A stretch of DNA of 27,404 nt from IMG/VR virus record IMGVR_UViG_3300047330_000010, positions 1 to 27,404 of that record. One strand, given 5' to 3'. The translations under genes and the position numbers were made by a program. The stretch comes from a virus. Of this stretch, positions 2,072 to 16,134 are shown piece by piece. Every line of letters begins with the position of its first letter. Position 1 is the first letter of the stretch. Under the pieces are notes generated by a model. That model saw nothing but the letters and a program-made list of their open reading frames with translations, made no database searches and was not told the origin of the DNA.

Positions 2072-4081
2072 ATGATCGTCACGCTTGATTACGAAACGAC
2101 TTACCTACCAGCGCAGAAGTATTCACTCACGAATATGTCCACCGTGGATTACCTGCTCGATCCACGGTATGAGACGATCATGTGCGCCATGAAGAAAGGC
2201 GCGGGCAGGACCGAATGCGAAATCGGTCATCGCTATGTCGCGCACATGCTCGCCAGCGTGGACTGGCCCAACGTGGCAATGTTATCTCATAACGCGCAGT
2301 TCGACGCGAGCATATTGTATTGGAAGTATGGATACGTCGCGGGATTGTATCTGGACACGGTTGCCATGGCGCGGGCGCTGACACACCCGCACATAGGCAG
2401 ATCCTCGCTTGCCAAGGTGGCGGAATATCTTGGCCTGCCACCCAAGGGCACCGAAGTTGTCAACGCCGCCAACAAAACCCTGAGCATGTTCACGAGCCAG
2501 GAACTCTACGAGTATATGCGATATTGCAAGCATGATTGCGATCTGGCGTATCAGATATTCCAGCGATTTATTCGGGTGTTCCCGAAGCAGGAATTATCCC
2601 TGATCGACCAGACCGTTCGCATGTTTGTCGATCCCCAGGTCAAACTAAATCCAACCAAACTCAGCGCCTATAGTTTCCAGCTTAAAGCCGAGATGGACCA
2701 GACGCTATCCCGCGTCGCGGGTATGCAATTCCCCGTGCAGGCGACCAAGAAATCCCGTGATCCTATCAAAGAGATATTCTCGTCTAACCCCAAGTTCGCC
2801 GCGATCCTCGAAGACCTGGGCGTGGAAGTGCCCATGAAAATCTCGCCCACGACCGGCTCGCTGACCTGGGCGTTGGCGAAGAACGACAGGGGTTTCAAGG
2901 AACTGTGCGATGATGCGTCACAACCGCCCGAGGTTCAGGCCGTGCTTGCCGCGCGCCTGGGCGTCAAATCCACCATCGACCAAACCCGAACAGATAAGTT
3001 ATTCAACCTAAGTTGCGCGAACTGGCCCGCAGAGTTCGGTGGGCCTGGGGCAGCGTGGATGCCCGCGCCCCTGAGTTATGGCGGCGCGCACACCCTGCGC
3101 TGGTCGGGCTCCGGGGGCTTTAACCTACAGAACATACGCCGGGGTTCGCCCATCAAGGACGCCATCGAGGCACCGCCGGGTATGCGTATCGTGCATCGCG
3201 ACAGTTCGCAGATCGAGGCGCGCATGGTGTGCTGGCTGGCGCGTGCCATGAAACTACTCATGGCGTTCCAGCAAAAGCGTGATGTTTACTCAGAGTTCGG
3301 GACAGGTTTCTATAAGAGACTTATCTCGAAACATACCAAGCAAGAACGGCAAGTTAGCAAAGTCGCCGTGCTGCAATTAGGGTATGGTTCGGGCATACCG
3401 AAGTTCAATCATAGTTTGTATCTTGCGGGGCTTGGGGCCGATCTGGAATTAGCCAAGCGCGTGGTGAATTATTATAGGTTTGATTTCGCCAAAGAGGTTC
3501 CTAAACTTTGGCACGCGCTGGATGATGTTCTTGAGCGCATGTGCATGATGAACGCGCCGGCAAATTATGATGGCGCGATGATGACTAATTATTCTGCATA
3601 TAACATGGGCATGACTTCGCAGCTTTGGGCGCTAGGTAAAGTGTTCGACGTGACCGCCGAGGGCGCGTGGTTTCCTGACGGGCTCGCGATACAGTATCCG
3701 AAGATACGCAAGCATACCTGGATGGATGACACCGGCCGTAATCAGAGCAAGGTCATATACAATGATCCATATGGCGGCGTGAAATCCCTGTGGGGTGGTA
3801 GCTTCCTGGAGAATATATCTCAAAGACTAGCGTGCATCGTCATCAAAGAGGCGATGAAAAGAATATACCATGAGACCAAATATCATCCCTTTTTGACCAC
3901 GCATGACAGCTTGGATTATTGCGTCCCCGAGGGCGATGTGCAATGGTGGGACGCCTATCTCGAAGCCGAGTTCGAGCGCCGGCCCACATGGGCACCCGAC
4001 CTGCCATTGGCCTCGGAAGGCGGCTGGGGGAAGACGCTGCTCGCGGCCGAGGATGAACACCATATCTGGCATAACCAATAA
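2072..4081 (+). CDS. family A DNA polymerase with 3'-5' exonuclease domain
   Basis: A 669-aa phage replicative polymerase of the Pol I / T7 gp5 type, preceded by a strong AGGAGG site (2057-2062). The 3'-5' proofreading domain shows Exo I (D6, E8 in LDYETTY), Exo II (SHNAQFD, residues 72-78) and Exo III (YMRYCKHDCDLAY, about 148-160). Polymerase motif A is HRDSSQIEAR with catalytic D377; motif B is RQVSKVAVLQLGYG with K430 and Y438; motif C is THDSLDY with H611 and D612. Oddities: the O-helix position equivalent to E. coli F762 is leucine (L434), the usual motif A Tyr after Asp is Ser378, and the usual Glu of motif C HDE is Ser613. There is no 5'-3' exonuclease domain, as is normal for phage enzymes. 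It presumably works with the PrimPol-helicase at 11722. Confidence 0.96.
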   Translation: MIVTLDYETTYLPAQKYSLTNMSTVDYLLDPRYETIMCAMKKGAGRTECEIGHRYVAHMLASVDWPNVAMLSHNAQFDASILYWKYGYVAGLYLDTVAMARALTHPHIGRSSLAKVAEYLGLPPKGTEVVNAANKTLSMFTSQELYEYMRYCKHDCDLAYQIFQRFIRVFPKQELSLIDQTVRMFVDPQVKLNPTKLSAYSFQLKAEMDQTLSRVAGMQFPVQATKKSRDPIKEIFSSNPKFAAILEDLGVEVPMKISPTTGSLTWALAKNDRGFKELCDDASQPPEVQAVLAARLGVKSTIDQTRTDKLFNLSCANWPAEFGGPGAAWMPAPLSYGGAHTLRWSGSGGFNLQNIRRGSPIKDAIEAPPGMRIVHRDSSQIEARMVCWLARAMKLLMAFQQKRDVYSEFGTGFYKRLISKHTKQERQVSKVAVLQLGYGSGIPKFNHSLYLAGLGADLELAKRVVNYYRFDFAKEVPKLWHALDDVLERMCMMNAPANYDGAMMTNYSAYNMGMTSQLWALGKVFDVTAEGAWFPDGLAIQYPKIRKHTWMDDTGRNQSKVIYNDPYGGVKSLWGGSFLENISQRLACIVIKEAMKRIYHETKYHPFLTTHDSLDYCVPEGDVQWWDAYLEAEFERRPTWAPDLPLASEGGWGKTLLAAEDEHHIWHNQ

Positions 4082-8034: not shown

Positions 8035-9615
8035 ATGCACATAAGTCAGGACTTAACGAAAATAATCATTCCCTACCGGGAGGGAATAGCAAACATCATC
8101 CCGCATGGTAAGCGTTTCGCGTTCCAGGGCGAGGATATGTTCGTGATGCCCAACGAACAGATCGAGGCGAAGATCGCGCGCAACCTGGGCGTCATGGTGC
8201 CCGCGCCGATCCTCACGCGCTACGATTGGCGCGGCACGAAGCCGTGGGATATCCAGCGCCAGACCGCCGCGATGCTGACCGAATGCGAGCGCGCCTACGT
8301 GCTGAACGGCCTTGGGACGGGCAAGACGCGCTCGGTGCTCTACGCCTATGACTTTCTCGAACGGTCAGGTGCGCTCTCTGGACCGATGCTCATATCCGCG
8401 CCGCTCAGCGTGGTGTCGTTCGTCTGGGAGCGCGAGATATTCAACGTCATGGCGACGCGCAAGGTGAGCGTGCTCTACGGCGACCGCAAGAAACGCCTGA
8501 AGAAACTCGCGGAGCCGGCCGACATATACATCATCAACCATCACGGCATGGACATAATTCTGGACGAGTTGATTAAAAAGAAGTTCGGGATTTTCGTGGT
8601 GGACGAACTCGCGATCATGCGGAACAAATCCACCGATCTGTGGAACGCCGCCAACGCCATCGTGGCGAGCCTCGCACCCAGCACGGGGGCTACAAGCCGG
8701 CCGGGCTACGCGTGGGGCCTGACGGGCTCTCCCACACCCCAGGCACCCACGGACGCCTGGGCACAGTGCCGCCTAATTACGCCCGGCACCGTGCCGCGCA
8801 CGAAGGCGCAGTTCATCGACCTGACCATGCGGCGCGTGACCCAGTTCAAGTGGGTGGCGCGGCCCGACGCCATGGAGATCGTTCACAAGGCCATGCAGCC
8901 ATCGGTGCGGTTTACCATACAAGATGTTATGGAATTGCCGCCGACCGTCTATCTCGACAAGATCGTAAAACTCGACCCGCCGGCCAAGCTGGCGTATGAC
9001 AGACTATGGAAAAAGGCCAAGATCGTATCCGACCAGGGCAAGAACATCACGGCGGTGAACGAAGGTGTATTACATAACAAACTCATGCAGGTCGCGGCCG
9101 GCTACATCTACGCCGATGACCGGACCATATATGAGTTACCCCACCAGGGCCGGCTTGACGCGCTGCTGGAAACGGTAGAGGAAGCCGAGGGGAAGGTGAT
9201 CGTGTTCGTGACCTACAAGCACGCCTTGGCGGGCATAGCGGGGTTCCTGCGCGGCAAGGGCTACACCGTAGGCGTGGTGTCGGGCGACGTGCCCAGCACC
9301 GCCCGCAACGCGATCTTCCGGGGGTTCCAGGATGGGGCCACGCCGCGCATAATCTGTGCCCACCCTCAGTGCATGGCGCATGGACTGACGCTCACGGCGG
9401 CCGACACGATCATCTGGTATTGCCCGACCCAGAGCCTTGAGACCTACGACCAGGGCAACCACCGCATCATCCGCCCGAGCCAGACACGCAAGACGCGCGT
9501 GGTGCACCTGTTCGGGACCACGGTGGAGCGCGTCACCTATAATCGCTTGAAGCAACGCGCCAACATGCAGGGCGCGCTTCTCGAAATGTTCGCATCACAG
9601 GAGTTGGTTTTCTAA
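8035..9615 (+). CDS. SNF2-like superfamily 2 DNA helicase/ATPase
   Basis: A 526-aa helicase-like ATPase. Motif Q-like region WDIQRQTAAML, Walker A GLGTGKT (Lys97, Thr98), motif Ia LISAPLSVVSFVWERE, motif II DELA (190-193), motif III GLTGSP (228-233), and the second RecA lobe with VIVFVTYKHAL, AHGLTLTAADTIIWY and motif VI QGNHRIIR (Gln473, Arg477, Arg480). This pattern fits SNF2/DEAD-type translocases found next to VRR-NUC genes in phages. It could drive replication fork remodelling or recombination. The dispersed palindrome lies within its first 18 codons (8069-8086). The stop overlaps the next start (TAATG). Confidence 0.93.
   Translation: MHISQDLTKIIIPYREGIANIIPHGKRFAFQGEDMFVMPNEQIEAKIARNLGVMVPAPILTRYDWRGTKPWDIQRQTAAMLTECERAYVLNGLGTGKTRSVLYAYDFLERSGALSGPMLISAPLSVVSFVWEREIFNVMATRKVSVLYGDRKKRLKKLAEPADIYIINHHGMDIILDELIKKKFGIFVVDELAIMRNKSTDLWNAANAIVASLAPSTGATSRPGYAWGLTGSPTPQAPTDAWAQCRLITPGTVPRTKAQFIDLTMRRVTQFKWVARPDAMEIVHKAMQPSVRFTIQDVMELPPTVYLDKIVKLDPPAKLAYDRLWKKAKIVSDQGKNITAVNEGVLHNKLMQVAAGYIYADDRTIYELPHQGRLDALLETVEEAEGKVIVFVTYKHALAGIAGFLRGKGYTVGVVSGDVPSTARNAIFRGFQDGATPRIICAHPQCMAHGLTLTAADTIIWYCPTQSLETYDQGNHRIIRPSQTRKTRVVHLFGTTVERVTYNRLKQRANMQGALLEMFASQELVF
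8069..8086. repeat. dispersed 18-bp palindrome, copy 3, within helicase start region
   Basis: TTCCCTAC, centre CG, GGAGGGAA: one arm mismatch, with an extra outer A-T pair at 8068/8087. It lies 34 nt after the helicase start codon and encodes IPYREG, a different frame from most coding copies. Confidence 0.75.
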
Positions 9616-9956
9616 TGGCCTGCCGCGAAAGCATGAACGGCGTCGTGTCGCCGCGCCATTGCCCCAAATGCGGGTATGGGTTTTCGAGAGTTCAGGACAG
9701 TCAGGACGCCAAGGGATATGTGCGGCGTCGCCGCAAATGCAGGAGTTTGAAATGTGATTACGTATGGGTTACATATGAAATACATCGCCCGAGCGCCGCC
9801 GAGTTATCGCCAATTAAACACCGTCCCAAAGTTTCTAACCGTGGCCGTAAAACAGTAGAACCTGCACTCGCGAAAATACGCGGTGATCGGTCAGAGTTCA
9901 AAATACCAAATAACCACTACGAAAACGAGGATCATCCCCATGACCAAACCGATTGA
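9615..9956 (+). CDS. NrdR-like zinc-ribbon protein without ATP-cone
   Basis: A 113-aa protein whose N-terminal 55 residues resemble the zinc ribbon of the transcriptional repressor NrdR: CPKCGYGFSRVQDS, then GYVRRRRKCRSLKCDYVWVTYEI. Zinc ligands would be Cys16, Cys19, Cys42 and Cys47; the second pair is spaced by four residues rather than two. NrdR binds NrdR boxes upstream of ribonucleotide reductase genes through this ribbon, and senses nucleotides by a C-terminal ATP-cone. Here the C-terminus is a short basic tail (HRPKVSNRGRKT) with no ATP-cone. It may be a DNA-binding regulator, or could mimic or titrate host NrdR (inference). The gene overlaps the start of the next one by 17 nt. Confidence 0.72.
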   Translation: MACRESMNGVVSPRHCPKCGYGFSRVQDSQDAKGYVRRRRKCRSLKCDYVWVTYEIHRPSAAELSPIKHRPKVSNRGRKTVEPALAKIRGDRSEFKIPNNHYENEDHPHDQTD

Positions 9957-10428
9957 GACAACAGAAGTCGAGTTCAAGCCAGCCTACGATATACCCAAAG
10001 AGAACGCCGTCGAGCCCGTCGCGCCCACAATGGATGCGAGCACACTCATCGACAAATACCGCCGGCTGCGGGCCAAGAAAGAGGAAATCGCTGAAGAACA
10101 AAAGAAAATCATGGCGCAATACAACGCCGGGCTGGATTATCTCGAAGGTATGTTATTGTCGCTGATGAACTCTATGGGCGTGGATAAATTATCAACGTCC
10201 ACCAACGACGAAAAATTCGGCGGCACGGTGTATAAGACCACCACGACCCACACGAGTGTGAACTCCTGGTCTTCGACCCTTGATTTTATCAAAGAACACG
10301 AGGCATGGGAATTGCTCGAAACGCGTGTAAACAAGAGCGCGGTGTTGAGCATACTAGAGGAAACAGGTGAGTTGGTTCCCGGTGTAACTATCGTTCAACG
10401 TATCAATGTGAACGTGCGTAAAACCTAA
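9940..10428 (+). CDS. coiled-coil phage protein, 162 aa
   Basis: I choose ATG 9940 because it has GAGG (9927-9930) and the TCATCCCC leader; the frame is open back to 9883 but without a ribosome site. Residues about 35-70 form a charged coiled coil (DKYRRLRAKKEEIAEEQKKI). Later comes VDKLST, then TLDFIKEHEAWELLETRVNKSAV and ETGELVPGV. This combination recalls a widespread uncharacterised phage family with a coiled coil plus the RVNKxAVLxxxEETGExxPGV ending, often near ssDNA-binding or recombination genes. Function unknown; a recombination accessory role is a guess from context. Confidence 0.78.
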   Translation: MTKPIETTEVEFKPAYDIPKENAVEPVAPTMDASTLIDKYRRLRAKKEEIAEEQKKIMAQYNAGLDYLEGMLLSLMNSMGVDKLSTSTNDEKFGGTVYKTTTTHTSVNSWSSTLDFIKEHEAWELLETRVNKSAVLSILEETGELVPGVTIVQRINVNVRKT

Positions 10429-15726: not shown

Positions 15727-16134
15727 CTAAACTACGATGTGCTCACGTAGGGGTGGGTTGTCGGCGTCCACGCTCGCCACCACGGTTAGGTGCCGGTCGG
15801 GTGAGGCGTTGATATACGCCCGCGCCACGGGGGGCAAGATTATACACCCGTCGCTCGCGGAGTGGTCGTGCTTGGCGTTGTCGCCATGTATCAAAAATCC
15901 CGAACGCCCGAACATTTCGTTAGACGGCGCGGGGGTGAGCCGCATGGACATAGGCCCGCAGTGTGGGTGATCGAACGCCTGGGAGATTGTGTAGAGCCCG
16001 CAGGGTAAGGGTCCGACGTTTTTATCCCCCTGATCCCCAGGGTTATCCTCGCCCGCGCCATGACCTGAATACCCTTGAGTATATTTCTTGCCCTGTTCGT
16101 AGAGCCAGCCTGTCGATTGGTCGTATGTCCACAT
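15727..16134 (-). CDS. DUF2778 / YkuD-like L,D-transpeptidase-fold protein
   Basis: A 135-aa protein with an excellent AGGAGG site upstream of the minus-strand ATG. N-terminus WTYDQSTGWLY, then GPLPCGLYTI, and the active-site region FLIHGDN (His83-Gly84) followed by SASDGCIILP (Ser94, Gly96, Cys97). The HG plus SxGC pattern is that of L,D-transpeptidase (YkuD) domains and of the related DUF2778 family, which includes the type VI effector Tlde1. Such enzymes act on peptidoglycan peptide stems as transpeptidases, exchange enzymes or carboxypeptidases. No signal peptide is visible. In a phage late block it may help host lysis or cell wall penetration (inference). Confidence 0.85.
   Translation of the reverse strand: MWTYDQSTGWLYEQGKKYTQGYSGHGAGEDNPGDQGDKNVGPLPCGLYTISQAFDHPHCGPMSMRLTPAPSNEMFGRSGFLIHGDNAKHDHSASDGCIILPPVARAYINASPDRHLTVVASVDADNPPLREHIVV

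Follow-up and report, generated by a model that had tools for sequence, protein, structure and literature searches.

An NrdR-type zinc ribbon without an ATP-cone, encoded beside a phage helicase gene, as a probable accessory DNA-binding protein

Profile search, fold prediction and gene content confirm that a 113-residue phage-encoded protein is a zinc ribbon, without an ATP-cone, of the type found in NrdR, a general bacterial repressor of ribonucleotide reductase (RNR). Its gene lies in the window, by which we mean the whole stretch of 27,404 nucleotides analysed here (one strand of IMGVR_UViG_3300047330_000010, positions 1 to 27,404). Rather than a true NrdR, the protein is probably an accessory DNA-binding protein of a kind already present in other phages. 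The explanation that we favour, at a probability of about 0.45, is that the ribbon and its flexible basic tail form an accessory, nucleotide-insensitive small transcription regulator expressed with the replication and recombination operon; we infer for it zinc binding, DNA binding, pairing and a regulatory role.

Results

The ribbon gene and its family

The ribbon gene (Table 1) is real and under purifying selection. An ortholog with 79-80% identity is present in a relative, G001 (IMG/VR contig 3300027860_000010, 59.8 kb), in which the helicase-ribbon-Gam order of the window is shared and the adjacent SNF2 helicase is 95% identical to the window copy; scans for the ribbon protein recovered this one ortholog among viral contigs and zero matches in genome contigs. 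Between the two copies the NG86 dN/dS ratio over the full length of the gene is 0.20 (0.128/0.656); the ribbon part alone gives 0.07 and the tail 0.35. Of the 63 nucleotide differences, 38 fall at third codon positions, and the basic NRGR stretch of the C-terminal tail is kept. Third-position GC is lower in the ribbon gene (0.52) than in the neighbouring genes (0.81 and 0.62), which mildly suggests that the gene was acquired.

Table 1. Features of the ribbon gene and its surroundings in the window, and stand-alone ribbons of other phages
Feature	Positions	Strand	Basis or remark
SNF2-type DNA helicase, upstream of ribbon gene	8035..9615	+	phrog_62 E=1.2e-90
Ribbon gene, 113 aa	9615..9956	+	ATG start; ATG overlaps helicase stop (TAATG), 3' end overlaps Gam-like gene
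NrdR-type zinc ribbon domain, residues 15-55, predicted ligands C16, C19, C42, C47	9657..9779	+	PF22811, fold prediction
D28-S29-Q30, equivalents of NrdR D15-S16-R17	9696..9704	+	alignment; essential Arg replaced by Gln
RRRR motif R37-R40, equivalents of NrdR R26-R29	9723..9734	+	alignment
C-terminal tail, residues 60-113	9792..9953	+	mostly predicted disordered; pLDDT, dN/dS
Gam-like / minor head family protein, downstream of ribbon gene	9940..10428	+	phrog_13900 E=7e-28, phrog_253 E=3e-4
S-CRES2, Montmirail and Ssp-JY39 ribbons			PF22811 above cut-off
YPHTV-1 ribbon			annotated nrdR, after dnaC; adjoins helicase
S31C1 ribbon			before primase
RcZahn ribbon			after ThyX
EBPR siphovirus 2 ribbon			near gene annotated RNR alpha
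ctLwi270 ribbon			between two DNA polymerase ORFs

The reading frame contains FSRVQDSQDAKGYVRRRRKC-RSLK-CDYVWVTYEI, with its cysteines arranged as C16-x2-C19 and C42-x4-C47, so that the motif strings on which the original prediction had been built, and the C-x4-C second pair that it had pointed out, are all present in the ORF at 9615-9956. The likeness to NrdR claimed there is borne out by PF22811 (Zn_ribbon_NrdR), which matches residues 15-55 at 37.3 bits (cut-off 27.2; E=2.7e-9) and thereby places the domain in this family and not in an unrelated zinc ribbon family. The only other Pfam match, to DUF7838, is below threshold, the sole PHROGs match is a weak one to a family of unknown function, and the score against the NCBIfam equivalog model for NrdR (TIGR00244) is 21.2 bits, short of its cut-off of 124.65. 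From an input alignment of two sequences only, AlphaFold2 predicts a ribbon of three strands, with pLDDT values of 84-92 for blocks spanning residues 11-50 and of 72 for 51-60, followed by a mostly unstructured tail (pLDDT below 50 for residues 63-104). NrdR comes first among the PDB fold matches of this model, in the structural comparison that had been proposed with the prediction: E. coli NrdR 9gex and B. subtilis NrdR 9a6n are at the top, with probability 1.00 and Foldseek E-values of only about 0.01. Among the best viral fold matches are a number of short proteins that bear the name NrdR-like N-terminal domain, and also an Ogr/Delta-type phage protein.

The ATP-cone (PF03477) has no match in the window, G001, TM3_14A, G004 or G007 by profile search, and its suspected absence from the protein agrees both with this and with the predicted disorder of the tail. 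Likewise, the RNR large chain (PF02867) is not found in the window, where no nrd gene had been seen by eye, nor in G001, TM3_14A, KPP25 or three further contigs of the group. A Pfam survey of 54 G001 proteins, which omitted a small number of ORFs (two large ones included), gave no hit to a nucleotide-metabolism enzyme. The NrdR-box-like 16-mers of the phage DNA score no higher, in the window or in G001, than the maxima of shuffled sequences.

DNA-contact residues

In Streptomyces coelicolor NrdR the DNA backbone is touched by R12, R26-29 and R37, and specificity comes from D15 and R17; the R17A protein does not bind its boxes, whereas D15A binds with relaxed specificity, and the ATP-cones set the state of the tetramer that binds the boxes (PMC9110341). 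By alignment, the phage ribbon keeps five of the six backbone-contact arginines, namely the equivalents of R12 (R25) and of the RRRR run (R37-R40), and has Val (V50) at the position of R37. Only the D15 member (D28) of the specificity pair is retained; the R17 position is Gln (Q30) in both the window and G001 copies. A grip on the DNA backbone is thus plausible from the alignment, whereas recognition of the canonical NrdR box does not appear so, because both copies have Gln in place of R17. The loss of R37, together with a loop that is two residues shorter than that of NrdR, could reduce an NrdR-like hold on DNA. In sum, the phage ribbon has in common with NrdR (TIGR00244; PDB 7p37, 9gex, 9a6n) the C-x2-C pair, DS, RRRR, the final C, T-x-E and the predicted fold, and differs from it in these residues and this loop, in its lack of an ATP-cone and of RNR linkage, and in a second pair that is C-x4-C rather than C-x2-C.

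The helicase/Gam-like slot in relatives

The gap between the helicase and Gam-like genes has no gene in G007 (where it is 55 bp), G004 and L010, and holds unrelated small ORFs, Cys-rich or other, in TM3_14A and L011. The content of this slot thus varies between relatives, which marks the ribbon as an accessory gene. The ORF in the slot of TM3_14A (L002 15315-15719) is Cys-rich and unannotated, and that at L011 11546-11971 is ribbon-like. TM3_14A also encodes a ribbon below the cut-off elsewhere in its genome (EVB41_047, 18.7-20.5 bits).

Stand-alone ribbons in other phages

Stand-alone ribbons above the PF22811 cut-off, 51 to 104 aa long, are found in eight or more further phage records (Table 1). 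Like the window protein, the eight compared here are short, have the ribbon as their sole domain above the Pfam cut-off and in several instances adjoin replication or nucleotide genes; the second pair, however, is C-x2-C in each of the eight and C-x4-C in the window ribbon, and the tails are unrelated. The R17 position is Arg in 6/8 of them, Glu in Montmirail and His in S31C1. An alignment of the diverse ribbons offered no stretch conserved enough for a scan. The ribbons of S-CRES2 (L006 1501-1707), EBPR siphovirus 2 (L014 3001-3315) and ctLwi270 (L015 around 2983-3138) lie in unannotated gaps. A literature search on NrdR, zinc ribbons and phages returned no papers on the subject, only passing NrdR annotations in phage genomes, and the literature searched describes no tested role for a ribbon-only phage gene. 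The best reading is that the window protein joins an already known, uncharacterised kind of phage ribbon.

Dispersed palindrome arrays

An 18-bp palindrome, TTCCCTACYRGTAGGGAA, is dispersed across the window in eight copies, starting at 1110, 4812, 8069, 13195, 14771, 19105, 20965 and 26129; that at 1110-1127 reads TTCCCTACCTGTAGGGAA and the seven others are near copies. G001 has 27 copies matching at 13/16 positions or more, many of them 9-100 bp upstream of early genes and others within genes, and about 0 are expected by chance from first-order Markov simulations. The same palindrome is present in five copies in G007, and different arrays are found in TM3_14A (36 copies of AGTTACCT-N4-AGGTAACT) and G004 (eight copies of AGGTTAAAC-N-GTTTAACCT). 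None of these three genomes encodes a PF22811 ribbon above the cut-off by profile search, which makes the arrays a feature of the phage group independent of the ribbon. They look like stoperator-type operators by analogy with the dispersed stoperators of mycobacteriophages (PMC9283540), but the arrays here are palindromic and differ between relatives. Compared with the ribbon, the arrays seem the more novel finding. A 7.3 kb contig (L040; IMG/VR 3300012943_000525) with no blastp match to window or G001 proteins contains 11 near copies of CCCTACNNGTAGGG, and the palindrome core therefore occurs in another element too.

Discussion

The accessory regulator that we favour would work as follows. 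One zinc ion would be held by C16, C19, C42 and C47, with the ribbon folded around it, and the DNA backbone would be gripped through R25 and the RRRR patch, probably by a pair of proteins. Because the protein has no ATP-cone, sensing of dATP or ATP would be impossible and its action constitutive. With Gln at the R17 position its recognition sequence would differ from the canonical NrdR box, and as a small regulator it may control transcription from promoters of the phage or the host.

The position of the gene, which translationally overlaps the helicase gene and precedes the Gam-like gene, fits a role in replication equally well as a regulator, and it is possible, if on balance unlikely, that the protein is a partner of either neighbour that binds intermediates of replication or recombination irrespective of their sequence. 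Other phage ribbons adjoin a helicase (YPHTV-1), a primase (S31C1) or polymerase ORFs (ctLwi270), and D15A NrdR still binds DNA with reduced specificity (PMC9110341), so that binding can survive a change in the specificity residues. However, proximity to replication genes is weak evidence in small phage genomes, and the empty or unrelated slots of the relatives mean that neither the helicase nor the Gam-like gene needs the ribbon. We consider it improbable that the protein occupies the NrdR boxes of the host or competes for them, or combines with the host's own NrdR, thereby derepressing host RNR and raising dNTPs. The NrdR-type ribbon with its RRRR and D15 equivalents intact is consistent with such a role, as is the failure to find an own RNR in the window phage or G001, from which it follows that both depend on host dNTP supply; but R17A NrdR does not bind the boxes and both orthologs have Gln at that position, and the ATP-cones that set the tetramer state (PMC9110341) are missing here. 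Of the original interpretation, then, an NrdR-type ribbon with neither ATP-cone nor nrd genes nearby stands, and the change of R17 to Gln and the loss of R37 weaken the case for an action at the NrdR boxes of the host.

An Ogr/Delta-like activator, that is, a phage-encoded zinc finger that engages the host RNA polymerase and switches on late promoters, seems quite improbable. The C-x2-C ... C-x4-C spacing of the window ribbon is Ogr-like, the second pair being shared with Ogr/Delta zinc fingers (PF04606), an Ogr/Delta-type protein is among the fold matches, and a relative from a Rhodobacter phage carries an Ogr/Delta-like annotation. That protein, however, matches the NrdR ribbon at E=7e-10 and Ogr only at 0.046, and the window protein has a strong PF22811 match and none to PF04606 up to E=10 (HMMER filters may drop weak ones), carries an NrdR-type RRRR patch and is encoded in a replication operon, not among structural genes; a literature search on Ogr/Delta returned nothing. 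Very improbable is the further suggestion that the ribbon reads the dispersed palindrome TTCCCTACYRGTAGGGAA. In its favour are the excess of copies over chance in the window and in ribbon-bearing G001, and the facts that NrdR-type ribbons bind palindromes and that the core CTAnnnnTAG and the NrdR-box core CTATATATAG share one register. But G007 has the palindrome of the window without the ribbon, and TM3_14A and G004 have other arrays, again without it, so that the arrays do not track the gene and the protein is unlikely to be their reader; action on the phage palindrome, which had been proposed as an alternative, is disfavoured by this distribution across relatives with and without the ribbon.

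Phages repeatedly carry only the DNA-binding ribbon of NrdR, several times next to replication genes, and the binding target of one such ribbon would tell whether host dNTP supply, phage promoters or replication is concerned. It is speculative, and improbable too, that ribbon-only relatives of NrdR are a widespread phage tool, nucleotide-blind and in some cases (the Gln-17 form) altered in DNA specificity, which from replication operons of phages without their own reductase would override host dNTP control or reprogram promoters.

Elsewhere in the window, near virion genes, positions 15727-16134 on the minus strand encode a small protein that has an L,D-transpeptidase-type domain (Tlde1/YkuD).
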